From the NCBI RefSeq assembly GCF_000189635.1, contig NW_002476481.1:496001-560000 (forward strand): a stretch of 64,000 bases of DNA. Reading direction: 5' to 3'. This document shows, piece by piece, positions 20,738 through 49,851 of this stretch. The notes under the pieces are model-generated. The model was not told where the DNA came from, made no database searches, and was given only the letters and a program-made list of their open reading frames with translations. The DNA is from Tetrahymena thermophila SB210. Taxonomy: Eukaryota > Ciliophora > Oligohymenophorea > Hymenostomatida > Tetrahymenidae. Made by a program: the position numbers and the translations under genes. Each line of letters begins with the position of its first letter. Positions within the stretch are counted from its first letter, which is position 1.

Positions 20738-22680
20738 TCAATAAATAGATGATAATATTCTTTTGTCAATTTCATTGATGTATTTTTCTGACTGACATTT
20801 TTAGAAAAATGATTAAATATGTTAGTATTGAAGTTCTTCTGAGATGTAAATAGCATATTATTCATCAAAATAACTCATTTTGTTCTGATTTGCTGCTTGT
20901 TATTAGAATTATTTTTATAAATTAAAATAAATATTATTTTATGAAATTTTACTTTGAAAACTTAAAGTGTTGCCTATTCCTTCCTTTTAAATATCAAAGA
21001 AATTCTAAGAACATCCAACTAGTTTTAGAGCTGAGAGTTATTATTTATCTAATAAAATCATTATCGCCTTCTTTAAAAATAATATATCTTTATACAGCTA
21101 AAAAATGTTCAAATCTTTTATCATTTAATCTTCTATAAACTTTTGTGACTGCTTGTTGAGTCCTTGGCTTTACAAATATTCCTCTTTTCTGCGAAACCTT
21201 TTATATTCATTATTAAAAACAGTAATTTAGATATATTAAAATACCTCTCTTAAAATTACCTTTTTTTGAAGATATTTTAAGAAATAATTTATGAAAATTT
21301 TTGGTTGCATATTGCCTTAAATTTTTCTAAACTTTTATCAAACTTAAATTTTTCATTAGTACGAATAGTTGATTGTGGTGAAATAAGACTAGAACTTCTT
21401 ATGTTTTGATAGCTGAGTCTCTCTTTTAAACTTTATTTCATTTATTATTGCAAATCTATCTGTAACTTTGTCTTAACAATCCTGGATTAGTAATGTTTAT
21501 TTTTAAAGTAATCACCCTCTTCTTTTTATTCACTAAGATCTAGCTTCTCCTATTTTATGCTAACGTTATTATTTTCTATATTCTCATTTACCTTTATAAC
21601 ATTTTTTTGCTTCTTCAAAATGTTCATAAAGTTATCTTAAAACATATTTTGCATGATTAACATAAAAAAATCCTTTCTTATTGAATCAAAGGAATACAAT
21701 CTTCCTAAAAATCCAAACAACATTAAAAGCGTTAAGATACTATTGCCAACAGCTAATATTTCAGGTATTGTCTGATATTAAACTTTTATTTCCTAAACAA
21801 TCTCATCCAAATTTATTTGAACAAAGCTATACCCAGAGCAATTTATATTTGTAATGCTATACTGCCTGTCATAACTTTACAAGAAAATATTATATTAGAT
21901 AGGAGAAGAATAATTTGTTGATTATAAGAATAGCATTCCTTATTTTACTGTAGTGACTTGTTTTTATGTCTTTAAATTTGTTTAAAGTAGCTGATTAGCT
22001 GTTGTAAAAATGAATTAATTTCTATATGAAACCTCCATTTTATTTGTCGCTATATTAAATTATGATGTAAATAATTTCAATCTCACACCAGAGTTAATTC
22101 CGTTTATAACTTAATCTATTTCTTATTAAGTAGCGCAGTCACTGGGAACTGTAGTTTTATAAACATCCAAATCTAAGCAACCATAAGTCATTATTCCTAT
22201 ATAGGAGTATATACTATCAATAGTACTAATAGTCAAAGCTAAATTTTGAAGTTTTGAAAAATCTATACAGTAAAAACCAATTAAGTTAGGATCAGTGCAT
22301 TTAATTATATCCAAAGTTATTTATGAATTATTTTAGCTGTCAGAATAATAAAAAAAGGCATAATTAACTATGTATGTCTTATTATTCTATTTTTGCAATT
22401 AGTCTATGCTTCTGTTATAATCATATTCATACCTAAACCCAACTATATTTGAGTCTAAGTTAATATCTACTCTTTCTTAAGTAATCACATTCTAAGATCT
22501 ATATATCGGATCTATTGAATTGTTTAGATATAAATCCAGTAGATATAAATAGTAAGAAGCTGCAGCTATTAAAACTACCAAAGTAGAAATTGTTCCTATT
22601 AAGGTTCCCTTCTTAATCTACTTTTTGTCAATATTAAAGTAGAAATGTTATGAAAATATATCTAGATTTTAAAAACCCAT
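20738..22680 (-). CDS. Two-TM protein with four-Cys ectodomain, array copy 1
   Basis: Family of unknown function. Three exons (introns 21198-21259, 62 nt, and 20893-20952, 60 nt) give 606 aa; the start MGFQNLDIFSQHFYF is conserved through the array. TM1 is at ~27-48 with no cleavable signal. A ~260-residue ectodomain carries cysteines C128 (KCTDPN), C138 (YCIDFS), C168 (YGCLDL) and C182 (DCAT). TM2 is at ~307-328 (ILAVGNSILTLLMLFGFLG). A ~275-residue cytosolic tail is Gln/Lys-rich and ends KRILSSIY. Both introns fall in the tail and are shared by the family. The short N-tail, TM, Cys ectodomain and TM layout recalls P2X channels and ERGIC/Erv proteins, but no diagnostic motif of either is seen. 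Closest to the copies at 44658 and 47891 (subgroup 1). Confidence 0.82.
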
Positions 22681-23896
22681 CAATAAGCCAAGCCAACTGT
22701 ATGTAATAAGGATATAAGTTTGAAAATATTGTTTATTATTTTTTTAATTACTTCTACTATTTAATTAAGTATAATAAAAATTAATAACAAAAAAAATATT
22801 ATTTACTTTAAGTCAAATAGATGATAGTCACAAAAGATTTATTTTTTAAAGATTAGTTAATCTCAAACTAGTCTTAAATATAAAGCCAGTAAAGCGGTTA
22901 TTAACATGAAAGCATCTTTATTTAATAAATAAAAAATAAAGAGTACATTAAATAGTTATAGAATTTACATTTTCAAGATAAAAATAAACCCATTTATCTA
23001 TCTTGCATTTCAATTATGTAATTTTGAAATTTTTATTAAGTAAGATACAAGTGAAAAAATATTCATTAATACTTGTCAAAAAAGGATGAATTAGATATTT
23101 AATATTAATGCTAAATATAAATAAATTAAATATGTGAATTTCATCATTAATATTACAAATTTATTTAATACAATTAAAATTGAAAAATATTCAGATTTAA
23201 AAACTTGCTGAATTAAATTTATGAACATATGTATGCTTGTTCATTAGTTTATGGTCTCAAAAAGATAGATAGTAAGAAATTTCAAAATACTTTAATTAAT
23301 TTTGCTCTAAATTTTTTAGAGTATCTAATAAACTAATTCTAATAATTTCACTTTTGCAATATTTTTATAGATTACAAAAGCACTTAAACTAATTAAAGAT
23401 TTTTACACTTATAATAATAACAAAAAGTACAAGAAATTTTCTAAATTTTTATGTGGTGAAAAATAATTAATAGTTAATTATTATATTTATTTGATTTTAT
23501 TATTGTAATAGTAAAATTTATAAATAAAAGAGAGAAAAATACAAATAATAATTATAAACTACTAGTTACATTTTATGTATAGCAATATGCCAAAGAAAAA
23601 TCTAGTGAATTGGATTCAATTAGAAATTTTATTTGTAATATTTTAAAAATAATAAATATATTATAAAAAAATTTTTATGGATTTAAATAGAGTTAAATGT
23701 CATTTCGATTTACAATAAGCGAAATTTAATGTTTTGATTTAATTAAGAAAATCACTAACAAAAAGAATAAAAATTCTTAAAAATAAAAATGTTTTTTTTA
23801 TTTGAAATATCTTTCTTATTGTAAATTAATAAGGAATTAAAATTGTTATTACAAAAAACAAAAAGAAGTAAATTTTAAGTTTTTATTAAAAGAAAT
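22681..23896. other. Array spacer
   Basis: About 1.2 kb of AT-rich DNA, the longest spacer before the LRR gene. No gene or gene relic was seen. Confidence 0.55.
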
Positions 23897-25851
23897 TCAA
23901 TAAATTGAAGATAGTATTCTTTTATCTACTTCATTCATATCAGACTCATTTTAACATTTTTAGAAGAATTTTTAAATATTCTAATATTACAATTCTTCAT
24001 TCATTAAAAGAGTAAGTTACTCTTCAAAGTGACTCCTTTTTTTTTCATTTTCTTTTTATAATATAAAAATTTTATTAAATTTGAAGAGCTAATATTCAAC
24101 TCTTTTAATATTTTTTTTAATTTACACGAAGATGTTATTATGCTTTGTAGGCTCTAATTTTAGAAATTTAAGAAATTCTATGAGCAACCTATAAGCTTTA
24201 TAGCTGCGAGTTACTGATTATCTAATAAAATCATAATTGATTTTTTTAAAAATAAAATATCTTTATAGATCTAGAAAATGTTCAAATCTTTAACCAATAG
24301 TTCCTCTATAAATTTTTTTGTATATTTGTCTAGTCCTTAGTTAAGTAAGTATTCTGACTTTTTGAGGCACCTTTTTTAAAAATCAATAATTATCAATCAA
24401 TAAGGAAAATAAAAATTAACTTACTTAATTTTGAATAAATTTTTATAAATAACCTATGAAAACTTTTCATTAAAAATAGCCTTAAAATTATATGATACTT
24501 TTTTCAAATTAGGTGACTATTTTTATTCTTTAATTTATTATGGTGAACTCTCATTTGAAATTACTAAATTCTGATAAGCAAATTTATTTTTTATTTCTAA
24601 TTTATTTTTCTATTAATCAATTTATAGCTTCGTTTTTATTCTCTGAGATTCGTACTTTTGATTTACAAAGTTTTGATTATCTTCTTTATATTCGCTATCC
24701 TCTAGCTATTCTTTTTTAATATTAAAATTTTTTTTATTGAAGATTTATTTTTTTTCTTAGTTGTCTTCAACAAGCTTGTTAACTTTTAAAATGTGCATAT
24801 AATTTTCTTAAAATAAATTCTACATTAAAAGCATAAAAAAATCATTTCTTATATTTTTAAAAGAAGAAAATCTTCCAAATATTCCAATGAACATTAAAAC
24901 AGTCAAAATACTATTTCCAAGAGCTAATATTTCAGGAATAGTAGGAAATTTAATCTTAATTTATTGAATAATTTCATCCATTTCTAATTTAACAAAGATA
25001 TAACCAGACTAAATATTATTTTGAATACTATATTTCCTATCAAGAGTTTAATAAAAGGAATTATATTCAATTGGTGAAGAAAAATTTGACTGTTACTATA
25101 TAAGAATTCCTTAATTTACTGCAGTTTCTTATTTCTATATTTTTAAGGTTGTAAAAGCAATTTGGTTTCCTTATGTGAATGAATAAGAATTTCTGTATTT
25201 GACTTATTCATTCTTTGTACTGGTATTAAATTGAGATGTAAATAATTTAAGTCTAATTCCTGAATTATAACCATTTATAACTTAATCAATTTCACTTTAA
25301 GTTGCGCAGTCATTTGGGATAGAAGTTTTGATAGTATCAAGGTCTAAGCATCCATAAGTAACAATTGCTATATAAGAGTAAAGATTATCAACTACACTAA
25401 GAGCCAAAGTTAGATTCTGCAGTTTAGAAAAGTCTAAACAATAAAAATCAATTAAATTAGTATCTGTACATTTTATTATATCAAGATTTATAAATGTACT
25501 ATTTTAGTTATCAAAGTAATAAAAAAAAGCATAGTTAACCAAGTATGTTTTATTACTCTTAGATTGTAATAAATCTAAGCTTTTGTTGATATCGTATTCA
25601 TATCTGAACCCAAATAAATTAGAGTTCAAGCTTATTTCTGTTCTTTCTTAAGTGATGATGCTCTGAGATCTGTAAATGGGATCTATTTAATTGTTGATGT
25701 ATAAATTAAGAAGATATATATAATAGGAAGAAGCGGCAATGATGACTATAAAAGTAGAAACAGTTCCAATCCATGTACTTTTTTTAATGTTCTATTTATC
25801 TACATTAAAGTAGAAATGCTATGAAAATATATCTAAATTACTAAAGCCCAT
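23897..25851 (-). CDS. Two-TM protein with four-Cys ectodomain, array copy 2
   Basis: The full translation is uninterrupted: start MGFSNLDIFSQHFYFNVDKQ, introns 24371-24424 (54 nt) and 24052-24125 (74 nt), 608 aa, ending KRILSSIY. All four ectodomain cysteines are present (KCTDTN, YCLDFS, YGCLDLD, NDCAT). TM1 is followed by YYIYLLNLYINNQIDPIYRS, the strongest family signature. TM2 is ILALGNSILTVLMFIGIFG. It belongs to subgroup 2 with the copies at 26240, 28709 and 36444, which share LVNYAFF and SIITQER/SQER after TM1. No function is recognised. Confidence 0.8.
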
Positions 25852-26239
25852 TAATAAATTAAAATAAAATACACTTTTTAAATTTCTATAGCTTTAAATA
25901 TTACTTCTACTAATTTATCTATTTATTATTTACTTATACAAAAAAAAAAAAATTTAGATAACATAAAATCAATGAAAAAGTATAAAAAAATTCATCTAAT
26001 TTTTTTTTAATGATTTCTATTTGTTGAATTATTTTAAAATAAAATAGTAACTTTAAGAAAGATTGCATATGTATAAATAAAAATAATTAATTATTTTATT
26101 ATTTTTAAGGAAAAATTTACTATTTTAATAAAAATAAAAATATCTTTTTTATTTAAAATATCTGTTTTTTTTAAAATAATATGTAATTTAAATTTTTAAA
26201 ATAAAAAGATATAAATTTTAAGTTTTTATTATAAGATAT
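25852..26239. other. Array spacer
   Basis: 388 bp of AT-rich sequence with poly-A/T runs. It probably holds the promoter of copy 3's downstream neighbour (copy 2) and the 3' end of copy 3. Confidence 0.5.
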
Positions 26240-28196
26240 TCAATAAATTGAAGATAATATTCTTTTATCTACTTCATTCATATCCTCTTCATTTTAACAT
26301 TTTTAGAAGAATTTTTATATATTCTAATATTGCAATTCTTCATTCATTAAAAGTGCAAACTACTCTTCAAAGTGGCTTGTTTTTTTTTCATTTTATTTTT
26401 TAATATAAGTCATTTCAATAAATTTAAATAGATAATAAATTGAACTTTTTGATCATTTTTTAAAATTTACATGGGGATGTTATCAAAGTTTGTATGCTCT
26501 AATTTTAGAAATTTAAGAAACTCTATGAGCTACCTATAAGCTTTATAGCTGCAAGCTACTGATTATCTAATAAAATCATAATTGCTTTTTTTAAAAATAA
26601 AACATCTTTAAAGATCTAGAAAATGTTCAAATCTTTAACTAATAGTTCCTCTATGAAATTTTTAGTATATTTGTCTAGTCCTTAGTTAAATAAATATTCT
26701 GATTTTTTGAGACACCTTTTTTAAAAACCAATAATTATCAATCAATAAGGAAAATAAAAATTAACTTACTTGATTTTGAATAAATTTTTATAAATAACCT
26801 ATGAAAACTTTTCATTAAAAATAGCCTTAAAATTATATGATCCTTTTTTAAAATTAGGTGATTCTTTTTATTCTTTGATTTATTTTGGTGAACTCACATT
26901 TGAAATTACTAAATTCTGATAAGCAAATTTATTTTTTAATTCCTATCTAATTTTCTATTGATCAATTTATTGCTTCGTTTTTATTCTCTGAGACTTATAC
27001 TTATGATTTACAAAGTTTTAATTATCATCTTTATATTCGCTATCCTCTAGTTATTCTTTTTGAATATTAAGATTTTTTTTATTGAAGATTTATTTATTTT
27101 CTTAGTTATCTTCTACAAGCTTGTTAGCTTTTAAAATGTGCATATAATTTTCTTAAAATAAATTCTACATTAAAAGCATAAAAAAATCATTTCTTATATT
27201 TTCAAAAGAAGAAAATCTTCCAAATATTCCAATGAACATTAAAACAGTCAAAATGCTATTTCCAAGAGCTAATATTTCAGGGATAGTTGGATATTTAATT
27301 TTAATTTATTGAATAATTTCATCCATTTCTATTTTAACAAAGGAATAGCCAGATTATATGTTATTTTGAATACTATATTACCTATCAAAATTTTATTAAT
27401 GTAAATTATATTGGATAGGAGAAGAAAAATTTGACTGTTATTATATTAGAAAACCTTAATTTACTACAGTTTATTATTTTTATATCCTAAATGTTGAAAA
27501 ACTAATTTGATTTCCTTAACTAATTGTGTAAGAATTCCTGTATTAGACTTATTCATTCTTAGTTTAGGTATTAAATTGAGAAGTAAACAATTTGAATCTC
27601 ATTCCAGCATTATACCCATTCATAACTTAATCGATTTCACTTTAAGTTGCACAGTTATTTGGAATAGAAGTTTTGATAGTGTCAAGGTCTAAGCATCCAT
27701 AAGTAGCAATTGCTATATAAGAGTAAATGTTATCAACTATACTATAAGCCAAAGTAAGATTCTGCAGTTAAGAAAAGTCTAAACAATAATAATCACTTAA
27801 ATTAGGATCTGTACATTTTATGATATCAAGATTGATATATGTATTATTTTAGTTATCAGTCTAAAAAAAATATGCATAGTTAACCAAATATGTTTTATTA
27901 TTTTGAGATTGTAATTAATCTAAGCTTATATTGATATCGTATTGAAATTTGAATGCAAACAAATTAGAATTTAAGTTTACTTCTATTCTTTCTTAAGAGA
28001 TGATGCTTTGAGATCTGTATATGGGATCTATTTAATTATTGATGTATAAATAGAGAAGGTATATATAATAGGAAGAAGCAGCAATAATGACTATTAGAGT
28101 AGTAGCAGTTCCAATCCATGTACTTTTTTTAATATTCTATTTATCAACATTAAAGTAAAAATGCTGTGAAAATAAATCTAAGCTACTAAAACCCAT
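26240..28196 (-). CDS. Two-TM protein, array copy 3, damaged last splice site?
   Basis: Start MGFSSLDLFSQHFYFNVDKQ. The frame is open through TM1, the four-Cys ectodomain (KCTDPN, YCLDFS, YGCLDLD, NNCAT), TM2 and most of the tail, with intron 1 at 26716-26769. The expected second intron begins normally (GTAAATTTT, near 26469). The acceptor found in sister copies as AAAAAG before AAAATG reads AAAAAAT here, and no usable in-frame AG replaces it. Retention would stop at a TGA at 26415-26417 and remove the conserved KRILSSIY end, although that end is still encoded in frame downstream. So it is either a functional gene with a shorter tail, a young pseudogene, or a sequence error. Subgroup 2. Confidence 0.7.
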
Positions 28197-28708
28197 CAAT
28201 AATTTAAAATAAAATAAACTTTTTAAAATTTTTTTGTTTTAATATTACTTCTACTAATTGATTTATAACTGATTTATGCATAATAAATTAAAATTTAAAT
28301 ACAATTAAAGGAATAAATGAAAAAAAAAAAATAATATCAGCAAATTCATCTAATTTTTCTTTAAAATTTCTATTTTTATAATAAAATAGTAACTTTAAAC
28401 AACATTACAAGCTCTTAATAATAAAAATTTATTATTTTATATTATAATTTATTACATAATTATTGAGTATAAAAAATGCTATTCTAATACATTTTATATT
28501 TTAATATACTTTCAATCCTCATTAATTAAAGCTAGATTTAATTAATACTATAATAAATTTTTGCATTAATAAAAATTATAAAATTTCTTAAAAAAAAAAA
28601 TGTTTTTTGAATTGAATTATCTGTTTTACAATAAATTAATATGAAATTATTTATTTTATTACAAGAAAAATAAAAAGAAATAAATTTTAAGTTTATATTA
28701 AAATATTT
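28197..28708. other. Array spacer
   Basis: About 510 bp of AT-rich DNA. Nothing recognised. Confidence 0.5.
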
Positions 28709-30697
28709 TCAATAAATTGAAGATAATATTCTTTTATCTATTTNNNNNNNNNNNNNNNNNNNNNNNNNNNNNNNNNNNNNNNNNNNNNNNNNNNNNNNNN
28801 NNNNNNNNNNNNNNNNNNNNNNNNNNNNNNNNNNNNNNNNNNNGAGCAAACTACTTTTCAAGTGACTTGTTTTATTGTCATTTTCTTTTTATAAAAAAAA
28901 ATTTCGATAAATTTAAAATGATAGTAAATTTAACTCTTTAATCCTTTTTAAAAATTTACATGAAGATGTCGTTATGCTTTATATACTCTCATTTTAGAAA
29001 TTTAAGAAACTCTATGAGCAACCTATAAGCCGTATAGCTGCAAGTTATTGATTATCTAATAAAATCATTATTGCTTTTTTTAAAAATAAAATATCTTTAT
29101 AGACCTAGAAAATATTCAAATCTTTAACTAACAGTTCCTCTATGAAATTTTTAGTATATTTGTCTAGTCCTTAGCTAAGTAAATATTCTGACTTTTTCAG
29201 GCACCTTTTTTTAAATTCGATTAATATCAATCAATTAAGGAAAATAAAGTTAATTTACTTGGTTTTGAATAAATTTTTATAAATAGCCTATGAAAACTTT
29301 TGGTTAATAATAGCCTTAAAATTATATGATTCTTTTTTCAAATTAGGTTTTTCTTATTATAATTTGATTTATTATTGTGAACTCTAATTTGAAATTACTA
29401 AATTCTGATAAGCAAAATTGCTTTTTATTTCTGATATTGTTTTCTATTAATCAATTTATAGCTTTGTTTTTATTCTCTGAGACTTGTAATTTTGATTTAC
29501 AAAGTTTCTATCATCGTCATCTTAATATTCTCTATTCTCTAGCTATTCTTTTTAAATAATATGATTTTTTTTATCTAAGATTTATTTTTTTTCTTAATTA
29601 ATAAATTTATTATCAACAAGCTTGTTAATTTTTAAAATGTGCAAATAATTTTCTTAAAATAAATTCTACATTAAAAGCATAAAAAAATCATTCCTTATTT
29701 TTTTAAAAGAAGAAAATCTTCCAAATATTCCAATGAACATTAAAACAGTTAAAATACTATTTCCAAGAGCTAATATTTCAGGGATAGTTGGAAATTTAAT
29801 CTTAATCTATTAAATAATTTCATCCATTTCTATTTTAACAAAGATATAACCAGACTAAATGTTATTTTGAATACTATATTGCCTATCAAAATTTTAGTAA
29901 AAGGAATTATACTGAATAGGCGAAGAAAATTGTGACTGTTATTATATTAAAATTCCTTAATTTACTACAGTTTCTTATTTTTATATTTTAAATGTTGTAA
30001 AAGAGATTTGATTTGCTTAAGTAAATGAATAAGAATTTCTGTATTTGACTTATTCACTCTTTGTACTAGTATTAAATTGAGATGTAAACAATTTAAATCT
30101 AATTCCAGAACTATATCCATTTATAACTTAATCGATTTCACTTTAAGTAGCACAGTTATTTGGAATAGAAGTTTTTTTAGCATCAATATCTAAGCATCCA
30201 TAAGTAACAATTGCTATATAAGAGTAAATATTATCAACTACACTAAGAGCCAAAGTATTATTTTACAGTTTAGAAAAGTCTAAACAATAATAATCAATTA
30301 AAATAGGATCTGTGCATTTTATTATATCAAGATTTATATATGTATAATTTTAATCATTAGAATAATAGAAAAATGCATAGTTAACTAAGTATGTTTTATT
30401 ATTTTTAGACTGTAATTAATCTAAGCTTATATTGCCATCTAATACATATTTGAATCCAAACAAATTAGAGTTTAATTTTAATTCTGTTTTTTCTTAAGTG
30501 ATGATGCTCTGAGATCTGTAAATGGGATCTATTTAATTATTGACATATAAATTGAGAAGATATATATAATAAGATGAAGCAGTAACAATGACTATAAAAG
30601 TAGAAACAGCTCCAATCCATGTACTTTTTTTAATATTCTATTTTTCTACATTAAAGTAAAAATGCTGTGAAAAGATATCTAAACAACTAAAACCCAT
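28709..30697 (-). CDS. Two-TM protein, array copy 4, interrupted by assembly gap
   Basis: Start MGFSCLDIFSQHFYFNVEKQ. The frame is open through both TMs, the four ectodomain cysteines (KCTDPI, YCLDFS, YGCLDID, NNCAT) and the tail. Intron 1 is near 29211-29264. The last exon contains the 100-N gap (28744-28843). Just before the gap (28854-28863 in plus coordinates) the sequence is one base shorter than in copy 2 (ACTTTTCAAGTGAC against ACTCTTCAAAGTGAC), which shifts the frame. Because it abuts the gap, an assembly or base-call error is the simplest reading. The end of the gene beyond the gap again encodes KRILSSIY. Subgroup 2. Confidence 0.7.
28744..28843. other. Assembly gap (100 Ns)
   Basis: Exactly 100 Ns, a conventional gap of unspecified true length, inside the last exon of array copy 4. 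Highly similar neighbouring copies make a collapse or misjoin here likely, so the count of array members could be an underestimate. Confidence 0.99.
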
Positions 30698-31321: not shown

Positions 31322-33277
31322 TCAATAAAAAGAAGTTAATATTCTTTTATCTATTTCATTGATATTACTTTAATTTTAACACTTTTAAAGAAATAACTAT
31401 ATGTTCTAGTATTAAAGCACTTCAGAAATAGAATTTGCAAATTACTCTTCAAAATGGCTCATTTTTTTTTCATTTACTTTTTTTGATATGTAAAGTTAGT
31501 TTAATTTTAAGTAATTTATAGAATAAAATATAATAATTTTTTATAATTTACTTTGAAATTATTATAATGTGTTCACAGTATGGTTTTAGATACCTAAAAA
31601 ACCTTAAGAAAATCCTACGAGCTTAATGGCAGCAAGTTATTGTTTATCCAATAAGATCATTATTGCCTTTTTCAAAAATATGATATCTTTATAAATTTCG
31701 AATATGTTCAAATCTTTGTTTATTTAGTCTTCAATAAATTTTTTAGTGTATTAATCTAGTCCTTTACTTAACAAATAATCTTTTTTTTTATAACACCTTT
31801 TTTTATAAAAAAAAATTATTTATTTCAATAGGAATTTTAATTTACTTGGTTTTGAAAATGTTCATATGAATTATTTTTGAAAATTTTTGATTGAATATAT
31901 CTTTAAAGTTCTATAAATTTTTACTCAAATTCAATCTTTCTTGCAAACTTTTTATTGGAGAATTAACGGTTGAAATTCTTAAATTTTGATAGGCAAATTG
32001 ATTTTTTAAATCTTATTTTAGATTTTATGAATCAACAAACTATTTTGTTTTTATCATTTAAGGTCTATAGTTATTAGTCTAAATGGTTTCATTTTCTTCT
32101 TTATATTCACTTAGATGAAATTCAACTTTTTAAGTAAAATTAATTCTTTGACTTTTTATTTATTCTTCATTAAATGTATTTTATTTGTTTTGTATTAATT
32201 TGTTAATTTTCAAGATTTACAAGTAACTCTCTTAAAATAGATTCTGCAGTAGTAGTACAAAAAAATTATTTTTTATTGAATTAGCAGAACAAACCTTTCC
32301 TAAAACTCCAACGAACATTAAAAGTGTCAAAATACTATTTCCAAGAGCTAATATTTAAGGAATTGTAGGGTATTATATTTTGATTACTTCCATAATTTCA
32401 TCCATTTAGATTTAAACGTAACTGTAACCTGAATAGTTTAAATTTGTAATGCTATACTATCTATCGTATGTCTATTAAAATGGATTATATTGGATCGGTG
32501 AAGAAAATTCTATTGAATTTTATATCAAAAATCCTTACTTAACTGATGTTACTTACTTTTATGCCTTAAGAATTGTCTAAACAAGTTGATCTGCTGAAGT
32601 GTAAATTAATTAATTTCTGTATTTCACCTATGCTTGTTTTGTCGTAGTATTAAACTAAGATGTAAATAGTTTTAGTCTGACTCCAGAATTGAAGTTATTA
32701 ATGACTTAATCAATTTCGCTTTGACTTGCACAGTTATTTGGAATAGTAGTTTTGTATATATCAAGATCTAAGCATCCGTAAATATTTATTTCAACATAAG
32801 ATAAAATATTTTAAGCAGTGCTTAAAGTCAAAGTCTAATTTTAAATGCTAGAAAAGTCTATGCAATAATAGCCAATTAAATTATAATCTGTGCATTTTAC
32901 AATATCTAGAACTACCTAAAAGCTATTTTATTCATCAGCATAATAAAACTAAGCAATTTAAACAATATAAGTTTTATTATTCTAAGCTTACAATAAGTCT
33001 ATGCTCTTATTAGTATCATACTCATATCTAAATCCTACAAGATTTGAGTTTAGGGTGATATCTATTATTTCATCACTGATAATGTTCTGAGATCTATATA
33101 AATGGGATCTATTTAATTTGAGAAATATAAATCAAGTAGATAAATATAATAGGAAGCAGCAATTGTTAAAACTATTAGACTTGAAATAATTCCAATAGAT
33201 GTACTCTATTTAATCTTGTTTTTATGAATATTGAAGAAAAAATTTTGTGAAAATATATCAAACTAAGAAAAGCCCAT
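31322..33277 (-). CDS. Two-TM protein, array copy 5, with a 2-bp insertion
   Basis: Start MGFSQFDIFSQNFFFNI. Subgroup 3 with the copies at 33823 and 38627. Just after the first TM, near 33103, this copy reads GATCTATATAAATGGG where sisters read GATCTATAAATGGG. The extra two bases shift the frame and lead to an early TGA in the ectodomain. Everything downstream is otherwise open in the original frame, with the four Cys motifs (KCTDYN, YCIDFS, YGCLDLD, NNCAS), TM2, the tail with both introns, and an ending KRILTSFY. Such an isolated lesion points either to a very recent pseudogene or to a sequence error. Confidence 0.7.
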
Positions 33278-33822: not shown

Positions 33823-35782
33823 TCAATATAAAGAAGATAATATTCTTTTATCTAATTCATTCATATTCTGTTCATTTTGACATTTTAATAGAAATAGCTT
33901 TATGTTCTAGTATTAAAGCTCTTCAGAAATAGAATTTGCAAATTACTCTTCAAAATGACTCATTTTTTAATCATTAGCTTTTTTTAATATGTAATGTTAG
34001 TTTGATTATAAATAGCTAAAATAATAATATAAAATAATTTTTTATAATTTACTTTCAAATTGTTATAATGTGTTCATATTATGCTTTTAGATACCTAAAA
34101 AACTTTAAGAACAACCTACAAGCTTAATGGCAGCAAGTTATTGTTTATCCAACAAGATCATTATTGCCTTTTTCAAAAATATGATATCTTTATAAATTTC
34201 GAATATGTTCAAATCTTTGTTTATTTAGTCTTCAATAAATTTTTTAGTGTATTAATCTAGTCCTTTACTTAATAAATAATCATTTTTTTTACAACACCTT
34301 TTTTTAGAAAAATTATTAATTTTATAAATAAGAATTTTAAATTTACTTGGTTTTGAAAATGTTCTAATGAATTGTTTTTGAAAATTTTTGATTGAATATA
34401 TCTTTAAAGTTCTATAAAAGTTTTCTCAAATTCAATTTTTCTTGCAAAATTTTTATTTCTTTTGGAGAATTAATGGTTGAACATCTTAAATTTAGATAGG
34501 TATTTTGATTTTTTAAATCTAATTTTAGATTTTAAGGGTCAAAAAGCTACTTTGTTTTTCTTCTTTAAGGTCTATTTTTATTACTCTGAATGGTTTCATT
34601 TTCCTCTTTATATTCACTTAACTCAAATTCAACTTTTTAAGTAAAATTACTTTTTTTACTTTTTATTTATTCTTCATTAGATGTATTTTATTTGTTTTGT
34701 ATTAATTTATTAATTTTCAAGATTTACATGTAGCTCTCTTAAAATAGATTTTGCATTAGAAGTACAAAAAAGTTATTTTTTATCGAATTAGTAGAATAAG
34801 TTTTTCCTAGAATTCCAGCAAACATTAAAAGTGTCAAAATACTATTTCCAAGAGCTAAAATTTAAGGAATTGTAGGGTATTATATTTTGATTACATCCAT
34901 AATTTCATCCATTTTTATCTAAACATAACTATAACCTGAATAATTTAAACTTCTAATGCTATACTACCTATCGTATGTCTATTAAAATGGATTATATTGA
35001 ATTGGTGAAGAAAATTCTGTTGAATTTTATATCAAAAATCCTTATTTAACTGATGTCACTTACTTTTATGCCTTAAGAATTGTCTAAACAAGTTGATCTG
35101 CTGAAGTATAAATAAATTAATTTCTGTATTTTACTTATGCTTGTTTTGTCGTAGTATTAAACTAAGATGTAAATAGTTTTAGTCTGACTCCAGAATTGAA
35201 GCAATTCATGATATAATCAATTTCACTTTGACTTGCACAGTTATTTGGAATAGTAGTCTTGTACATATCAAGATCTAAGCATCCGTAAATATTTATTGCT
35301 ATATGAGATAAAATATTTTCAGAGGTGCTTAGAATTAAAGTCTAATTCTAAATGCTAGAAAAGTCTATGCAATAATAGCCAATTAAATTAGGATCTGTGC
35401 ATTTAACAATATCTAGATCTACCTAAAAGCTATTTTATTCATCAGCATAATAAAACTAAGCAATTTAAACAATATAAGTTTTATTATTCTAAGCTTACAA
35501 TAAGTCTATGCTCTTATTAGTATCATACTCATATCTAAATCCTACAAGATTTGAATCCAAGGTGATATCTACTATTTCATCATTGATAATGCTCTGAGAT
35601 CTATAAATTGGATCTATTTAATTGGTGAAATATAAATCAAGTAGATAAACATAATAGGAAGCAGCAATTGTTAAAACTATTAGACTTGAAATAATTCCAA
35701 TAGATGTGCTCTATCTTACCTAGTTTTTATCAATATTGAAGGAGAAACTTTGAGAAAATATATCAAACTAAGAAAAACCCAT
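33823..35782 (-). CDS. Two-TM protein with four-Cys ectodomain, array copy 6
   Basis: An open frame from MGFSQFDIFSQSFSFNIDKN through TM1 (then YYVYLLDLYFTNQIDPIYRS), the ectodomain with KCTDPN, YCIDFS, YGCLDLD and NNCAS, and TM2 (ILALGNSILTLLMFAGILG). The Gln/Lys-rich tail follows, with two introns at the family positions, ending KRILSSLY. The ectodomain has one additional cysteine shortly after the fourth conserved one (MNCFNSG where sisters have NNFNSG or NSFNSG), unique to this copy. Subgroup 3. Looks intact. Confidence 0.8.
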
Positions 35783-36443: not shown

Positions 36444-38025
36444 TCAATAAATTGAAGATAATATTATTTTATCTACTTCATTCATGTCCGACTCATTTTA
36501 ACATTTTTAAAGAATTTTAAATATTCTAATATCTCCTTTTTTTACCTTTTTTAAAAGCCAATAATTATTAATAAGGAAAATAAAAGTTAACTTACTTGAT
36601 TTTGAATAAATTTTTATAAATGACCTATGAAAACTTTTGGTTAAAATAGCCTTAAAATTATATGATTCTTTTTTCAAATTAGGTTTTTCTTTTTATTATT
36701 TGATTTATTATGATGATTTTTTATTAGAAATTACTAAATTCTAATTAGCAAAATTATTTTTTATTTCTGATTTAGTTTTTTATTGCTCAATTTCTTTGTT
36801 TTTATTCTCGAAGACTTATACCTTTAATTTACAAAGTTGTCAATATCATCTTTATATTAGTAATCATCTAACCATTGTTTTTAAATATTAGGATTTTTTT
36901 TATTGAAGATTTATTTTTTTCTTAATTAATAACTTTTTTATCAATAAGTTTGTTAATTTTTAAAATGTACATATAATTTTCTTAAAATAAATTGTTCATT
37001 AAAAGTATAAAAAAATCATTTCTTATTTTTTTAAAAGAAGAAAATCTTACGAACATTCCAATGAATATTAAAACAGTCAAAATACTGTTTCCAAGAGCTA
37101 ATATTTCAGAGATAGTTGGAAAGTTAATCTATATCTATTAAATAATTTCATCCATTTCTATTTTAACAAATATATAACCAGACTAAATGTTATTTTGAAT
37201 ACTATATTACCTATCAAAATTTTAGTAAAAGGAATTATATTGGATAGGCGAAGTAAATTGTGACTGTTATTATATTAAAATTCCTTAATTTACTATAGTA
37301 TCTTATTTTTATATCCTAAATGTTGTAAAAGCAATTTGATTTGCCTAAGTGAATGAATAATAATTTCTGTATTTGACTTATTCACTCTTTGTACTGGAAT
37401 AAAATTCAGATGTAAATAATTTAAGTCTAATTCCTGAATTATAACCATTTCTAACTTAATCAATTTCACTTTAAGTTGCACAGTCATTTGGGATAGAAAT
37501 TTTGATAGTATCAAGGTCTAAGCATCCATAAGTAATAGTTGCTATATAAGAGTAAATATTATCAACTACACTAAGAGCCAAAGTATTATTTTGCAGTTTG
37601 GTAAAGTCTAAACAATAATAATCACTTAAATTAGGATCTGTATATTTTATTATATCAAGATTTATATATGTATTATTTTAGTTATCAGAATAATAGAATA
37701 ATGCATAGTTAAATAAGTAAGTTTTATTATTTTGAGATTTTAATTAATCTAAGCTTATATTGGCATTTAATAAATATCTGAATCCAAATAAATTAGAATT
37801 TAAGTTTATCTCTATTCTTTCCTAAGTTATGATGCTCTGAGATCTGTAAATGGGATCTATTTAATTATTGATGTATAAATTAAGAATATTTATATAGTAG
37901 GAAGAAGCAGTAACAATGACAATAAAAGTAGAAACCGTTCCAATCTATGTACTTTTTTAAATATTCTATTTATCAACATTAAAGTAGAAATGTTGTGAAA
38001 AGATATCTAAACAACTAAAACCTGT
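36444..38025 (-). pseudogene. Pseudogene of the two-TM family, array copy 7
   Basis: A subgroup 2 relative with several independent defects. The codon aligned with the family ATG reads ACA (TTGACAGGTTTTAGT against TTGATGGGTTTTAGT) and no nearby in-frame ATG replaces it. The first conserved ectodomain cysteine is Tyr (KYTDPN). A run of A in the tail near 36915 has seven bases where sister copy 4 has eight, shifting the frame. Roughly 400 bp around exons 2-3 is deleted, so the sequence jumps from just after intron 1 to the final KCQNESDMNE segment. The last codons read KIILSSIY. Intron 1 and flanks are still recognisable. Confidence 0.85.
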
Positions 38026-38626: not shown

Positions 38627-40587
38627 TCAATAAAAAGAAGATAATATTCTTTTATCTATTTCATTGATATTATTTTAATTTTAACATTTTAATAGAAATA
38701 ACTATATGTTCTAGTATTAAAGCTCTTCAGAAATAGAATTTGCAAATTACTCTTCAAAATGGCTCATTTTTTTTTCATTTACTTTTTTTGATATTTAATG
38801 TTAGTTTAAATATAAGTAATTAATAGAATAAAATAAAATAATATTTTTTTTTTTTACTTTAAAATTATTATAATGCGTTCACAGCATGCTTTTAGATACC
38901 TAAAAAATCTTAAGAACATCCTACAAGCTTAATGGCAGCAAGTTATTGTTTATCCAATAAGATCATTATTGCCTTTTTCAAAAATATGATATCTTTATAA
39001 ATTTCGAATATGTTCAAATCTTTGTTTATTTAGTCTTCAATAAATTTTTTAGTGTATTAATCTAGTCCTTTACTTAACAAATAATCTTTTTTTTTATAAC
39101 ACCTTTTTTTATTAAAAAAAATTATTTATTTCAATAGGAATTTTAATTTACTTGGTTTTGAAAATGTTCATATGAATTATTTTTGAAAATTTTTGATTGA
39201 ATATATATTTAAAGTTCTATAAATGTTTACTCAAATTCAATCTTTCTTGAAAACTTTTTATTTCTCTTGGAGAATTGATAGTTGATCTTCTTAAATTTTG
39301 ATAGGCAAATTGATTTTTTAAATCTTATTTTAGATTTTATGAATCAACAAACTATTTTGTTTTTATCATTTAAGGTCTGTATTTATTACTCTAGATGGTT
39401 TCATTTTCCTCTTTATATTCACTTAACTCAAATTCAACTTTTTAAGTAAAATTATTTCTTAGACTTTTTATTTATTCTTCATTAAATGTATTTTATTTGT
39501 TTTGTATTAATTTGTTAATTTTCAAGATTTACATGTAACTCTCTTAAAATAGATTTTGCATTAGAAGTACAAAAAAATTATTTTTTATTGAATTAGCAGA
39601 ACAAACCTTTCCTAAAACTCCAACAAACATTAAAAGTGTCAAAATACTATTTCCAAGAGCTAAAATTTAAGGAATTGTAGGGTATTATATTTTGATTACT
39701 TCCATAATTTCATCCATTTAGATTTAAACATAACTGTAACCTGAATAATTTAAATTTTTAATGCTATACTACCTATCGTATGTCTATTAAAATGGATTAT
39801 ATTGAATCGGTGAAGAAAATTCTGTTGAATTTTATATCAAAAGTCCTTATTTAACTGATGTTACTTACTTTTATGCCTTAAGAATTGTCTAAACAAGTTG
39901 ATCTGCTGAAGTATAAATAAATTAATTTCTGTATTTCACCTATGCTTGCCTTGTCACCGTATTAAACTAAGATGTAAATAGTTTTAGTCTGACTCCAGAA
40001 CTAAAGCTATTCATGACTTAATCAATTTCACTTTGACTTGCACAATTATTTGGAATAGTAGTCTTGTACATATCAAGATCTAAGCATCCATAAAAAATTA
40101 TTGCTACATAAGATAAAATATCTTAAGCAGTGCTTAGAGTCAAAGTCTAATTCTAAATACTAGAAAAGTCTATGCAATAATAGCCAATAAAATTAGGATT
40201 TGTGCATTTTACAATATCTAGAACTACCTATGAGTTATTTTAGCCATCAGCATAATAAAACTAAGCAATTTAAACAATATAAGTTTTATTATTCTAAGCT
40301 TACAATAAGTCTATGCTCTTATTAGTATCATACTCATATCTAAATCCTACAAGATTTGAGTCTAAACTGATATCTATCATTTCTTCAGTGATAATGTTCT
40401 GAGATCTATAAATGGGATCTATTTAATTTGTGAAATATAAATTAAGTAGATAAATATAATAGGAAGCAGCAATTGTTAAAACTATCAGGCTTGAAATAAT
40501 TCCAATAGATGTACTCTATTTAATCTAGTTTTTATCAATATTGAAGAAGAAATTTTGTGAAAATATATCAAACTAAGAAAAGCCCAT
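38627..40587 (-). CDS. Two-TM protein with four-Cys ectodomain, array copy 8
   Basis: Subgroup 3 copy that looks intact: MGFSQFDIFSQNFFFNIDKN, TM1 followed by YYIYLLNLYFTNQIDPIYRS, ectodomain with KCTNPN, YCIDFS, YGCLDLD and NNCAS, TM2, and a tail ending KRILSSFY. Intron positions are as in the rest of the family. It lies directly upstream (in chromosome coordinates) of the LRR gene, which interrupts the array, and is separated from its closest relative (33823) by a subgroup 2 pseudogene. Confidence 0.8.
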
Positions 40588-41126
40588 AATAATTGCTAAA
40601 AAAATTTAGAATCCCTTTGTTTTCTCAAGTTTTTAATTTTTAGTATTACTTCTACTAACTTAATAATTACTAAATTTAATGATAAAATAATCAACTAATT
40701 TTTTTTTTTGCTTTATTTTCAAATAAAAATGATTTGAAACTAATTCAGAACAAAAGCTGATTTACTTTATTTAAAATTTTGCCAATTTATCGCTAAATTC
40801 AGAAATCAAAATTTGTAATCATGATAATAAATAATTTCAAATAGGTTTATATAATTATTTAAAGTAATTTTAAAAAATAAATATATATATGTAATAACAT
40901 AGATTTTATACTATTAAAAAACTTGCATAAATGTAAGAAATTTTGAATAAATATCTCTTACCATATTATTAATTAAAAAATAGTAAATTTTTGTATTAAA
41001 AGGTAAGATATGTTATCTTTTACAATATTTTATTGCAAAATATGAAATTATAAAATAAAATATATTATATCTAATTATTAAAATATATCTTTAATTTACT
41101 TATTCTATTTCATCATTTATTAAGAA
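40588..41126. other. Spacer between array copy 8 and the LRR gene
   Basis: About 540 bp of AT-rich DNA with no coding content. It holds the 3' end of the LRR gene and the promoter of copy 8. Confidence 0.5.
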
Positions 41127-44100
41127 TCATTAATTTTCAAAGACAACTAATCTTTTAGATTTAATACATCTTTTATTAACTTTCATTTATTTGGATTCAT
41201 TGATTTAGTTGTATCTATTAATAGAAATTAAATTTTTTAAAAGTGAAATTTATAAAAAAATTTAAAAAAATAAAAAATCATAATAAAAATAAATAACTCA
41301 AAGAATAAACTATTAAGTAAATTAAAAGAGTTTTATTAATTTAAATTCATTTTTATATGTAATAATATCATAACCCAAAATAAAAAACTGCTTTTACCCA
41401 AGACTAAGTGTCAAATTTAAGAGATTAGTGCACTTTGATAAAGCAAAACCTAAATTTGATGCACCTTCATCACCAATTTTATTCTAACTTTATATATGTT
41501 GAAGATAATAAAAACAATTATATAGATGGAATTATTGAAGAATAATTACGAATATTTATGATGTAATAATAAAAGCATATGTTCAAGATTTAAAAATGAG
41601 TTAAATTAATAGAGATAGAAAAAATATAAAAAACTAATAAATAAGTAAAAATAGTTTTATTTTTTAATTCCTTTTTATATTAAATAATGTCACAATCTAA
41701 AATAAATAAACTCTTTTTACCTAAGATAAAGTGTTAAATTTTAGAGATTAGCGAAGGTTACTAAAGCAAAACCTAAGTCTGATGCACCTTTCGAACCAAT
41801 TCTATTTGAACTTTTTAAAGATTGTAGAAAATATAATTAAGCAAAAGTTAAAATTTAAAGAGAAAATTGCACAACCAAATAAAATAAATAATCAATTAAA
41901 AAAAGAATAAAAAAATTTAAAAAGTTTTATTATATTTAATTCATTATATTTTAAAACACATCAATATTATATTCAAACAAATAAAAAGTATTTACCTAAG
42001 ATAAAGTGTTAAATTTGAAAGATTTGTGCATTTTGCTAAAACAAAACTTAATCCTGATGAACCTTCATCACAAATTTAATTTCCACTTTTAAATATTTAA
42101 CAAAAAATAATTACTTAATTGAAAAAAAGTAGAAAACATATCAAGCAATAAAAATTTAAAACTGATTCTATATATAAAGCTGTATTCCCATTTAAGAAAA
42201 CATAAAAATAAGTAAAAAATGAAACTAGGAAGAGGGGTTAGCTAATCGATACTTCTTTAAACCTTGTAGAGGTCATTAATTAATTTAGATTGGTTTTAGA
42301 AAAAATATTTAAAACTTATTATTTCTTTCTACCTCCTAAATCACAAAGGTTATCAAAAACAGGCATATTTATTCTAAATTCTTTAATTTTTGCTAATCGC
42401 AAGTTACAATGTAAGAGAATATAACAATAATCAAAGAAAAAATTGAAAATTAAAAAGTAAATAAAATTAAGAGAACAAAAGGCAAAATCAATAAAATAAA
42501 AAAAAGCTAATAAATAAATAAATTAAATTAGCTTTAATGTTATAAATTAATTTTTATATTAAAAAATATCTAAATTTATTATAATAATGTTTTTTACCAA
42601 AGATCAAGTGTCAAGTTTGAGAGATTAGTGCACTTTGCTATAGCATGACTTAAACCTAATGCACCTTTTGCACTGATGTAATTATCACTTTTTAAATATA
42701 GAATAAAATTTAATTAGCTAGTTAGAACTAATTAAGAGAAAAAATGAGCAATCAAAATAAAAAAGCAATTAAATTTAATAAAAAATTTAAAATATTTTTG
42801 CAATTTTAAATTTATTTTTTTATTAAAAGAATCACAATCTAAAACAAATAAAACTATTTTTACCCAAAACTAAGTGCCAAACTTGAAATATTAGGGAAAT
42901 TTGCTATATCAAAAGAAAAGCTTGACACACCTTCATCACTTATTTTGTTGGAACTATTTAATTATTGAAGAAAATATAATTAGTTAATGAGAAAGAAAAA
43001 AACACATAAAGATATGAAACAACAAAGAATTAAATAATTACTTAAGTAAAAAATCAAATAATGAGCTAAATTAAAAGAAAATATAATCACAACCAATTAA
43101 AAAAGCAAGTAAAATAAATAATAAATAAATAAAATAATATAAAATAAAATATTTTTACTGTAGATAAAGTGCGAGATTTGAGATATTAGAGCACTTTGCT
43201 AGAGCAAAACCTAAGTTAGATGCATCTTCATCCTAGATTCTATTCCAACTTTTTTAGAAATTGAAGAAAATAAAACAAGTTTGAAGTATAAAATGAAATA
43301 AATATTTGAAATGATAGTAAATAATTTAATAATCAAATAAAAATCAGAAAGTTAAAAAATGAGCAAAATTAAGAAAAACAAAATATATATTTATAATCCA
43401 ATAATAAAAGTAAAAATTAAACAAAAAGTTAATAAATAATCAAATCAAATAAATGAGTTTTATTATTTTAATTTCATTTTTATATTAAAAAAATCACATG
43501 AAAATAAATAAACTATTTTTACCCAAGATAAATTGTCAAATTAGATAGCTAAGTACACTGTTCTAAAGCAGAACATATGCTTAATGTGCCTTGATAGCCA
43601 ATTTAATTTCCACTTTTCAAATATTTAAGAAAATATTATTAGTTAGTTAATTTGTTTGTTTGTTTGTAAAAAGAAAAATTTAACAAAATAAGAAATATTT
43701 CTAACTAAAGTTAAATATTTAGAAATTAATTAAAATTATCACAAATAAAGGAAAATAATAATAATAGTAAAGTAAATAAATAAAATAAAAGCTAATAAAT
43801 AAATAAATAAATTAAAATAGTTTTTTTTTAAATTCTATTTTTTATTAAAAAATATCATAATCTAAAATAAATAAACTGTTTTTACTTAAGACTAAGTGTC
43901 AAATTTGAGAGATTATCACATTTTTATAATGCAGAGCCTAAGCTTGATACTCCATCATCGCCAATTTTATTGGAACTTTAAAAATATTAAAGACAATCAT
44001 ATTAATTAATTTATGAATATAAAATAGTTAATAAAATATATTCACTTTAATAAATAAGAATGTAGACCAGCCAGAATATTAATTCCAAAAAAAATATTTT

Positions 44101-44263
44101 AAATTTGATAAATAAAGATGAATAAATTAAGATTTATAGTAATAAATTTAAATTACTTTAGATCGATATGGAGAATAGAATGAGTATAAAGAGAAGAGTT
44201 TAAAAACTTTTTTATTTATTAAAATAAATTAAAGGATTATTGCTAAAAAATAAAATATTACAT
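41127..44263 (-). CDS. Leucine-rich repeat protein, one repeat per exon
   Basis: Ten exons, 304 aa: 44157-44263; eight exons of exactly 90 nt (43886-43975, 43523-43612, 43159-43248, 42864-42953, 42598-42687, 41996-42085, 41721-41810, 41398-41487); and 41127-41214. All junctions are phase 2. Each 90-nt exon encodes one 30-residue repeat of the ribonuclease-inhibitor-like type. Examples are GQNKIGDEGASNLGFALSKC followed by TNLLNLTLSL, and SNRIGSKGASDLGFALVTFA. Exon 1 starts MQYFIFQQQSFNLF and ends SILHIDLN; the last exon ends KSKRLVVFENQ. Such proteins form a curved protein-binding solenoid; there is no signal peptide or TM, so it is probably cytosolic. Exon 1 is the least certain, chosen because its frame, phase and LxLN ending all fit. 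Confidence 0.85.
42320..42420 (-). other. Possible decayed LRR exon inside an intron
   Basis: The 512-nt intron 42086-42597 is about twice the size of the others in the LRR gene. In its middle the minus strand can be read as CNLRLAKIKEFRINM, which has the spacing of the second half of a repeat (AxC-x-L-x-x-L-x-I). No 90-nt frame with proper splice sites remains. It could be a dead ninth repeat or chance. Confidence 0.25.
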
Positions 44264-44657
44264 TTTAAAGGTTATCATAATATTTATTCTACAATATCAT
44301 TTTTTTTTTTTTAAGGCTATTTAAAAGTAATTTATCAAAATTTAATTAATTAGAATCAAATTATTAATTAAAGTTTTTAAATAATAATTTTAATTAAAAA
44401 ATTTACTTTTTAAGGTGATTAAATATATATAGTTCATAAAAAATTTTTATAAAAATTATTTTTGATAAATATTCAAAAAATAAATAAATTATAAAGAGTT
44501 AAATTTTAAAAAATTAAAAAACAAACAAAGAAAAGTAATAATTTTTAGATTATATTCAGAAATATTCACCAAAAAGTTAATATTAAAGTAAGACTCATAA
44601 AAAAATTATCATAAAATTAAAATAACTGAATAAACATTAAATATTTTTATTTGATAA
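44264..44657. other. Spacer upstream of the LRR gene
   Basis: About 390 bp of AT-rich DNA, probably the LRR promoter and the 3' UTR of array copy 9. From about 44411 it belongs to the tandem duplication described below. Confidence 0.5.
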
Positions 44658-46618
44658 TCAAGATATCGAAGATAGTATTCTTTTATCAATCTCATTTATA
44701 CACTTTTCAGATTGGCACTTTTAGATAAATTATTAAATATTCTATAATTAAAGATCTTCAGATATTAGAATAGCATATTACTCCTCAAAATGACTCAATT
44801 TGTTTTCGTTTGCTTTTTTATAACCAAAATAATTAAAAAGAGGAAGTTAAAATTTATTGAATTTTGTTTTATTTACATTGAAAGCTTAAACCGCTATCTA
44901 TATTATCCTTTTAAGCTTCTAAAAAATTTTATGAGCATCCAACAAGTTTTAGTGCGGCTAATTACTATTTATCCAGTAGGATCATAATAGCCTTTTTTAA
45001 AAATAAAATGTCCTTATAGAACTAAAAAATATTCAAGTCTTTAACTAATTAGTCTTCTATAAATTTCTGAGACTACTTACTAAGTCCTTGACTTTAAAGG
45101 TATTCTTCCTTTTTACGGAACCTTTTTTATTTGATCAATAAATTAATTATTTTTAATTGTAAACGAATTAATTTACCTTGTCTTGAAAATATTTTTGTAA
45201 ATTATTTATGAATATTTTTAGCTGCATATTGCCTTAAAATTCTGCATATGTTTATCTAATTTATACCTACCTACAGCAGTGTTTGCTTCTCTTGATGTAG
45301 AAACATTTGAGTTTCTTATTTTATTATAAAAATAATTTTCTCTTAAACTTTATTTTATTTATTGAAAATCTATTTGTAACTTTGTCTTAATTGTTCTGGA
45401 TTATTAGTATTGTGTACTTTTAAAATAATCAGATTCTCCTTTTTATTCATTCATATCTAATTTCTCTTATTCAGTGCCATTATTGTTATTAGCTTTGATC
45501 TCAGGTGTTTTATTATTTTCTTATTTCTCTTCAACTTGTATTTTCAAAGACTTTAAAATTTTCATGTAATTTTGTTAAAATAAATTTTGCATGATTAGCA
45601 TAAAAAAATCTTTTCTTATAGAATCAAAAGAATAAAACTTTCCTAAAACTCCTATGAACATTAAAAGGGTTAAAATACTATTTCCTAGAACCATAATTTC
45701 TGGAATAGTCTGAAACTGAACAATGGTTTATTAGACAATTTCATCTACATTTATTAGGACAAAGCTATATCCAGAAAAATCAATATTTGAAATGCTATAT
45801 TGTCTATCATAGCTTTACAAGAAGACATTATATTAGATAGGTGAAGAATAGTTTGTAGATTATAAAATGAGCATTCCTTCCTTTACTGTAGTTACCTATT
45901 TCTAAGTCTTTACGTTTGTTTAAATAAGTTGATTAGCTGATGTAAAAGTGAATTAGTTTCTGTAGGTAACTTACATTTGCTTCTTAGAAGTGTTAAACTA
46001 GGATGAAAGCAATTTCAACCTCATACCTGAATTCATAGAATTTATTATTTAATCAATTTCTTATTAAGAAGCGCAATTTGTAGGAATTGTAGTTTTATAA
46101 CTGTCTAAGTCTAAACATCCATAAGTAATAATTCCTATATAAGAGTAAATGCTTTCAATAGTACTTAGAGTTAAAGTGTAATTCTTAAGATTTGAAAAAT
46201 CAATGCAGTGAAACCCAATTAAGTTAGCATCTGTGCATTCAATTACATCCAAAGTTACTTGCTAATTACCAAAACTATCAGAGTAGTAGAAAAAGGCATA
46301 ATTTACCAAGTATGTCTTATTGTTTTAAGCTTCCAATAAATCTATGCCTTTGTTATAGTCGTATTCATATCTAAATGCTACAAGATTATCATCAAGGTTA
46401 ATATCTATTCTTTCTGAAGTTATGACATTCTGAGATCTATAGATAGGATCTATTTCGTTTTTTATGTATAAATTCAACAAATATATATAGTAGGCTGCTG
46501 CAGTAACCAAAACGACTACAGTGGAAATTAATCCAATTAGCGTGCTCTTCTTTATCTTTTTTTTTTCAACATTAAAGTAGAAATGCTATGAAAAAATGTC
46601 AAGATTATCAAAACCCAT
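44658..46618 (-). CDS. Two-TM protein with four-Cys ectodomain, array copy 9
   Basis: Translates cleanly from MGFDNLDIFSQHFYFNVEKK to KRILSSIS. Introns 45122-45176 (55 nt) and 44813-44876 (64 nt) leave 613 aa. TM1 is TLIGLISTVVVLVTAAAYYI. The ectodomain has IECTDAN, HCIDFS, YGCLDLD and TNCAS, and TM2 is IMVLGNSILTLLMFIGVLG. The tail starts with a KDFFMLIMQNLFQQ amphipathic stretch after TM2, is Glu/Asn/Gln-rich in its middle, and is conserved again around the third exon (LDKQQLAALKLVGCSQNFL). Subgroup 1 with 20738 and 47891. Codons are slightly less AT-biased than in subgroup 2. Confidence 0.83.
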
Positions 46619-47890: not shown

Positions 47891-49851
47891 TCAAGATATC
47901 GAAGATAATATTCTTTTATCAATCTCATTTATATACTTTTCAGATTTGCACTTTTAGATGAATTGTTAGATACTCTATAATTAAAGATCTTCAGATATTA
48001 GAACAGCATATTACTCCTCGAAATGGCTCAATTTACAATCGTTTGCTTTTTAAAAATCAAAATAGTTTATAAAAGGAAGTTAAAATTTATTGAATTTTGT
48101 TTTATTTACATTGAAAGCTTATACCGCTATCTATATTATCCTTTTAAGTTTCTAAAAATTTTTATGAGCATCCAACAAGTTTTAGTGCGGCTAATTACTA
48201 TTTATCCAGTAGGATCATAATAGCCTTTTTTAAAAATAAAATGTCCTTATAGAGCTAAAAAATATTCAAGTCTTTAACTAATTAGTCTTCTATAAATTTC
48301 TGAGACTACTTACTAAGTCCTTGACTTTAAAGGTATTCTTCCTTTTTACGGAACCTTTTTTATTTGATCAGTAAATAAATTATTTTTAATTGTAAAGGAA
48401 TTAATTTACCTTGTCTTGAAAATATTTTAGTAAATCATTTATGAATATTTTTGGCTGCATAATTCCTTAAAATTCTGCATATACTTATCTAGTTTATACC
48501 TACCTATAGGAGTGTTTGCTTCTCTTGGTGTAGAAACATTTGAGTTTCTCAACTTTTCATAAAAATTTCTTTCTTTAAAACTTTGTTTTATTTATTGAAA
48601 ATCTATTTCTATCTTTGTCTTAGTTGTTCTGGAATATTAGTAGTTTCTATTTTTAAAATAATCAGCTTCTCCTTTTTATTCACTTATATCTAATTTCTCT
48701 TTTTAAATGCTAGTATCGTTATTAGCTTTGACTTAAGGCACTTTAAAATTTTCTTACTTCTCTTCAACTTGTGGTTTCGAAGACTTTAAAATTTTCATGT
48801 AATTTTGTTAAAATAAATTTTGCATGATTAGCATAAAAAAATCTTTTCTTATAGAGTCGAAAGAATAAAACTTTCCTAAAACTCCTATGAACATTAAAAG
48901 TGTTAAGATACTATTTCCTAGAGCCATAATTTCTGGAATAGTCTGAAACTGAACAATGATCTCCTAGACAATTTCATCAACATTTATTAGAACAAAGCTA
49001 TATCCAGAGCAATTGATATTTGTAATGCTATACTACCTATCATAGCTTTGCAAGAAGACATCGTATTAGATGGGTGAAGAATAATTTGTAGATTATAAAA
49101 TGAGCATTCCTTCCTTTACTGTAGTTACCTATTTCTAAGTCTTTATGTTTGTTTAAATAAGTTGATTAGCTGCGGTATAAATGAATTAGTTTCTGTAGGT
49201 AACTTACATTTGCTTCTTAGAAGTGTTAAACTAGGATGATAGTAATTTTAACCTCAAACCTGAATTCATACCATTTATTATTTAATCAATTTCTTATTAA
49301 GAAGCGCAATTTGAAGGAATTGTAGTTTTAACACTGTCTAAGTCTAAGCATCCATAAGTCATAATTCCTATATAAGAGTAAATACTTTCAATATTACTTA
49401 GAGTTAAAGTGTAATTCTTAAGATTTGAAAAATCAATGCAGTGAAACCCAATTAAGTTAGAGTCTGTGCATTCAATTACATCCAAAGTTACTTGCTAATT
49501 ACTAAATCTATCAGAGTAGTAGAAATAAGCATAATTTACCAAGTATGTCTTATTGTTTTAAGCTTCCAATAAATCTATGCCTTTGTTGTAGTCATATTCA
49601 TATCTAAATGCTATAAGGTTATCTTCTAGATTGATATCTATTCTTTCTGAAGTTATGACATTCTGAGATCTATAGATAGGATCTATTTCATTATTTATGT
49701 ATAAATCGAGCAAATATATATAGTAGGTTGCTGCAGCAATTAAAACGACTACAGTGGAAATTAATCCAATTAGCGTGCTCTTCTTTATCTGTTTTTTTTC
49801 AATATTAAAGTAGAAATGTTATGAAAAAATGTCAAGATTAGCAAAACCCAT
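47891..49851 (-). CDS. Two-TM protein with four-Cys ectodomain, array copy 10
   Basis: Nearly identical to copy 9 and exactly the same genomic length (1,961 bp), with equivalent introns. Start MGFANLDIFSQHFYFNIEKK; ectodomain IECTDSN, HCIDFS, YGCLDLD, SNCAS; end KRILSSIS. Differences are scattered substitutions, several of them amino-acid replacements in the ectodomain and in the variable part of the tail. Looks intact. Confidence 0.83.

Follow-up and report, generated by a model that had tools for sequence, protein, structure and literature searches.

The ten-copy array on the minus strand of the window (the whole stretch of 64,000 nucleotides analysed here) is a small part of a far larger family, predicted to cross the membrane twice with a four-cysteine ectodomain between the two transmembrane segments (TM1 and TM2). 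The nearest known family is weakly indicated to be that of the ERGIC/Erv41-Erv46 ER-Golgi cargo receptors. A tentative explanation, which we favour while rating it just short of probable, is that a family of ciliate two-TM glycoproteins, distantly related to these receptors, has been expanded in tandem.

Organization of the array

The initial annotation had described ten copies on one strand, and sequence patterns together with a family profile applied to the window recovered exactly this, an array of 10 copies within positions 20738-49851 (Table 1). The window, with a GC content of 19-25%, is ciliate nuclear DNA; together with the genetic code and the genome size, this composition is suggestive of Tetrahymena. 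Reading TAA and TAG as glutamine, as in the ciliate code, gave long frames in the copies, and under the standard code just two open reading frames of at least 100 amino acids overlapped positions 18000-52000. The copy-to-copy identity of 300-nt windows was 66-97% (among the 20 repeat families listed). Seven copies are apparently intact; of the other three, the first is interrupted by an assembly gap, another is frame-broken and the last is degenerate.

Table 1. Array copies, with positions counted from the first letter of the window.
Copy	Position	Strand	State	Modelled introns
1	47891..49851	-	apparently intact	48409-48355, 48109-48046
2	44658..46618	-	apparently intact	45176-45122, 44876-44813
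3	38627..40587	-	apparently intact; exon 1, tail core and last exon present	
4	36444..38025	-	degenerate; no ATG, Y at C128, no tail core	
5	33823..35782	-	apparently intact	34346-34298, 34052-33978
6	31322..33277	-	frame break directly after DPIY; remainder in two stretches	
7	28709..30697	-	N-run 28744-28843 covers part of last exon	
8	26240..28196	-	apparently intact	first tail intron, 26769-26716
9	23897..25851	-	apparently intact; genome-search seed	24424-24371, 24125-24052
10	20738..22680	-	apparently intact	21259-21198, 20952-20896

Of the features that had been described as common to all copies, the opening motif MGFxx(L/F)DIFSQ occurs unaltered in eight of the ten, copy 8 carrying DLFSQ and copy 4 TGF. 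DPIYRS occurs in nine, the frame-broken copy 6 being the exception. The four cysteines (C128, C138, C168 and C182) were found in all eight window copies of one alignment and are incomplete in the degenerate copy. The ending KRILSSIY holds for only four copies, the other six having variants of it: KRILSSIS in two, and KRILSSLY, KRILSSFY, KRILTSFY and KIILSSIY in one each. Two-intron tail models were obtained with a splice script for 7 of the 10 copies. Its end pattern did not fit the remaining three copies, of which two are damaged, and the sole model for copy 8 omits part of the last exon.

The copies are under purifying selection, the whole-region dN/dS being 0.10-0.38 in 36 of 36 pairs among nine copies, although many of these pairs have a saturated dS. 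Positive selection was not seen in the same comparison.

The otherwise regular spacing of the copies is broken by 4 kb at approximately 40600-44650, where the family profile had no match. Next to the array, a frame of about 1100 residues (51393-54698, minus strand) gave a VSP-type cysteine-rich match of 48.9 bits, and a second frame of about that length (57681-60938, minus strand) one of 39.4 bits, both over the Pfam cut-off. The other flank holds an open frame of 1386 residues (15325-19482, minus strand), for which Pfam gave nothing at E ≤ 0.01, and an open frame at 1931-4306 on the plus strand has an AAA ATPase match close to its C-terminal end (5.7e-7). Rfam and tRNA scans gave no matches.

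Size of the family in the genome

Searches of the genome (101 Mb, 445 contigs) with three seeds returned at least 114, at least 102 and at least 112 matches. Merging these by script left at least 181 loci with a first exon, spread over 53 contigs and arranged in 68 clusters of which the largest holds 15 loci; all these counts are lower bounds, because the best candidates alone were scored. This is a large family for any genome, and its scanned window members carry no Pfam annotation. Further members beyond the 181 are L097, L098, L099 and, on contig C399, a frame that neighbours the ERGIC gene. One seed gave 104 matches outside the window, 60 of which were fetched; L016 was left out of the resulting alignment A1 since the start rule had picked a wrong start. 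Pattern searches gave 351 matches in viral contigs and 17 in those of prokaryotes, but no confirmed member; the patterns presuppose the standard code. A literature search found no publication on the two-TM family, and the available parts of PMC3341644 and PMC4729789 do not mention it.

A sister family was reached via the locus L096 (C186:293186-294214) and comprises at least 120 stretches, these 120 corresponding to at most 118 loci. It shares the whole layout and the N-terminus with the array family, and has both TMs in register with it; L096 aligned over its full length with A3, the alignment that includes five divergent members discussed below, at a score of 39.3 (maximum in shuffles 25.5). 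The sister family differs in having an ERGIC-like TM2, that of L096 being identical to the ERGIC TM2 at 12 of 29 positions (pairwise E 0.022), and its 120 stretches share no coordinate with the 181 loci in a by-eye comparison.

Protein layout and topology

The protein models free of gaps, six in number, span 598-613 residues, and the shortest of them omits part of the last exon. Each begins with a short N-terminus, followed by TM1 (residues ~26-50), an ectodomain (about 240-250 residues) in which four cysteines are invariant and N-glycosylation sequons are conserved, TM2 (~305-327) and a long tail, the TM positions having been assigned by eye. The four cysteines are invariant across 67 aligned members, and C128 is present in 67 of 68 once the degenerate copy is added; almost no variation occurs at Asn 313, which lies in TM2 or close to it. 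In counts that are not independent, the members being related (which applies to the hit counts as well), ectodomain positions 64-303 hold 335 sequons compared to 225 ± 13 in shuffles, the N-terminus 11 compared to 17.7 ± 3.5, and the first part of the tail 23 compared to 35.5 ± 5.3. Sequons occur at N146 in 60 of the 67 members, at N100 in 53 and at N209 in 45. Their enrichment in the ectodomain and scarcity on both cytosolic sides support an N-in/C-in topology. Together with the invariant cysteines, this distribution supports the predicted two-TM, four-cysteine layout, as the initial annotation had proposed. AlphaFold2, run with 8 and 9 window sequences, reached a mean pLDDT of just 31.1 and 31.9, respectively.

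A constant tail combined with a variable ectodomain was considered and is unsupported, as the mean pairwise identity was 0.41-0.54 in parts of the ectodomain and 0.43-0.44 in the tail. The tail includes a core and a last exon, and the profile of each recovered 59 of the 60 fetched loci outside the window, counted on full-sequence E-values of 1e-3 in one search and 0.1 in the other, with 21 of the 59 rows in the search at E 0.1 showing a weak stretch. Neither part had a meaningful match in Pfam or PDB, and the tail gave zero matches to PDB sequences. In the genome, the tail core profile had at least 150 matches, of which 101 lie within 2.6 kb of merged loci and 49 elsewhere, the latter being candidate matches.

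Similarity to ERGIC/Erv41-Erv46

The initial annotation's statement that no known family motif is visible goes too far. Three window copies compared singly with Pfam gave no meaningful match (best DUF4340, E 0.3), and NCBIfam had no match to the window copies. PDB sequences likewise yielded nothing meaningful, with best E-values of 0.52 for a single copy and 1.5 for each of the alignments A1 and A3. The wider family, however, lends weak support to a relationship, as 33 of 67 members matched ERGIC_N (PF13850) at E ≤ 1 (best 0.00055), and any other Pfam family was matched by at most 4 of the 67 (among the 25 families listed out of 48). Five divergent members reached 33.4, 28.5, 25.5, 25.0 and 23.5 bits against ERGIC_N, so that two of the five pass the Pfam cut-off of 27; these five and L096 had been fetched as ERGIC_N matches and are thus a favourable choice. 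Throughout the genome, ERGIC_N gave 44 rows, 5 on true ERGIC genes and 29 on the family or the sister family. The remaining 10 rows, on neither true ERGIC genes nor known loci of the family, lie on C17, C162, C251, C5, C122 (C122:1298064) and C130.

The comparison was extended to a true ERGIC gene on C314, which has both ERGIC Pfam domains and matches Erv41 in PDB at 1.1e-8. Using hhalign, A3 aligned with it at a score of 27.9 with TM1 in register, and the maximum in 100 block shuffles was 20.9; the hhalign probability against the genome's ERGIC was 6.6% with A3 and 2.3% with A1. Of ten block-shuffled N-termini, one gave an ERGIC_N match of 17.5 bits and a second a match of 18.2 bits to an unrelated transporter family, so that isolated weak matches carry little weight. 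COPIIcoated_ERV (PF07970) gave 5 rows genome-wide, all on true ERGIC genes (C314, C399 and C81), and was absent from the Pfam scans of the three window copies and the five divergent members. The absence of this domain outside true ERGIC genes marks the family as ERGIC-like, not ERGIC. ERGIC/Erv41-46 had been among the candidates of the initial annotation, and the similarity to the genome's own ERGIC, which exceeds 100 of 100 block shuffles, though weakly, tentatively places ERGIC/Erv41-Erv46 as the nearest known family.

On C399 (locus L075), the true ERGIC gene (ERGIC_N at 16126-16398, minus strand) has a family frame about 1 kb away in divergent orientation, running from ~17350 on the plus strand, with a family tail-core match nearby (C399:19249).

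Possible function and alternative explanations

In the favoured explanation, the N-terminus and long tail of these proteins would be cytosolic and the four-cysteine, sequon-bearing domain would lie in the lumen or outside the cell. The luminal domain may bind cargo or ligand, and the conserved tail module may engage a common partner, for example a coat or an adaptor, the many paralogues possibly serving many ligands. Cargo binding and a tail partner are proposed by analogy with yeast, where the Erv41-Erv46 complex aids ER exit of the enzyme Ktr4 through the Ktr4 lumenal domain and, when Erv41 lacks its C-terminal tail, is trapped in the ER (PMC4001239).

Hundreds of paralogues in tandem clusters, an ectodomain glycosylated at predicted sequons, a conserved tail module and VSP-like, cysteine-rich array neighbours would also suit receptors or adhesion proteins of the cell surface, which may have an ERGIC-like ancestry, with an ectodomain that senses environment, food or other cells and a tail that signals. 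This main rival is possible but on the whole doubtful, as no diversification specific to the ectodomain is seen, dN/dS being well below 1 and the ectodomain about as conserved as the tail. It is unlikely that the two-TM family is unrelated to ERGIC and that its N-terminus and TM1 resemble ERGIC_N by chance: relatives exceed the Pfam cut-off, the real hhalign score was reached by none of the 100 shuffles and the TM2 of the sister family is ERGIC-like, although the missing COPIIcoated_ERV, the weak profile probabilities and the occasional weak matches of shuffled N-termini to ERGIC_N and other membrane families would be expected of a chance resemblance.

P2X and ASC/ENaC channels also have two TMs and a large ectodomain. 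Ligand-gated channel subunits of either type, P2X having been named in the initial annotation, would be compatible with the topology and ectodomain size of the family and with the near invariance of Asn 313. Such an identity is nevertheless highly improbable and was rejected, since neither the family nor any other sequence of the genome matched PF00864 (P2X) or PF00858 (ASC) at E ≤ 1, in addition to which the PDB sequences offered no meaningful match. A further proposal, which we consider quite unlikely, is that in a ciliate lineage the scaffold of a cargo receptor became a main recognition repertoire. Its two-TM proteins, about 300 in number (181 or more loci of the array family and at most 118 of the sister family), would carry diversified, glycosylated ectodomains on the cell surface or on feeding membranes and report via the cytosolic tail module.

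Comparison with the ERGIC family

The ERGIC family is small in other eukaryotes. Were the distant relationship to the cargo receptors true, a family small elsewhere would have been expanded to hundreds here, and ligand recognition by its scaffold could be studied across natural variants; were it false, the loci would form a very large membrane-protein family without assigned relatives. The likeness to ERGIC/Erv41-Erv46 lies in the N-terminus and TM1, which resemble ERGIC_N, in the TM2 of the sister family, and in a predicted architecture of two TMs (placed by eye), cytosolic ends and a large luminal or outer domain, as suggested by sequons and cysteines. In contrast, the family lacks a COPIIcoated_ERV match, has another cysteine pattern and carries a conserved tail far longer than that of ERGIC, and its 181 or more loci stand against three to four separate ERGIC genes in the same genome.
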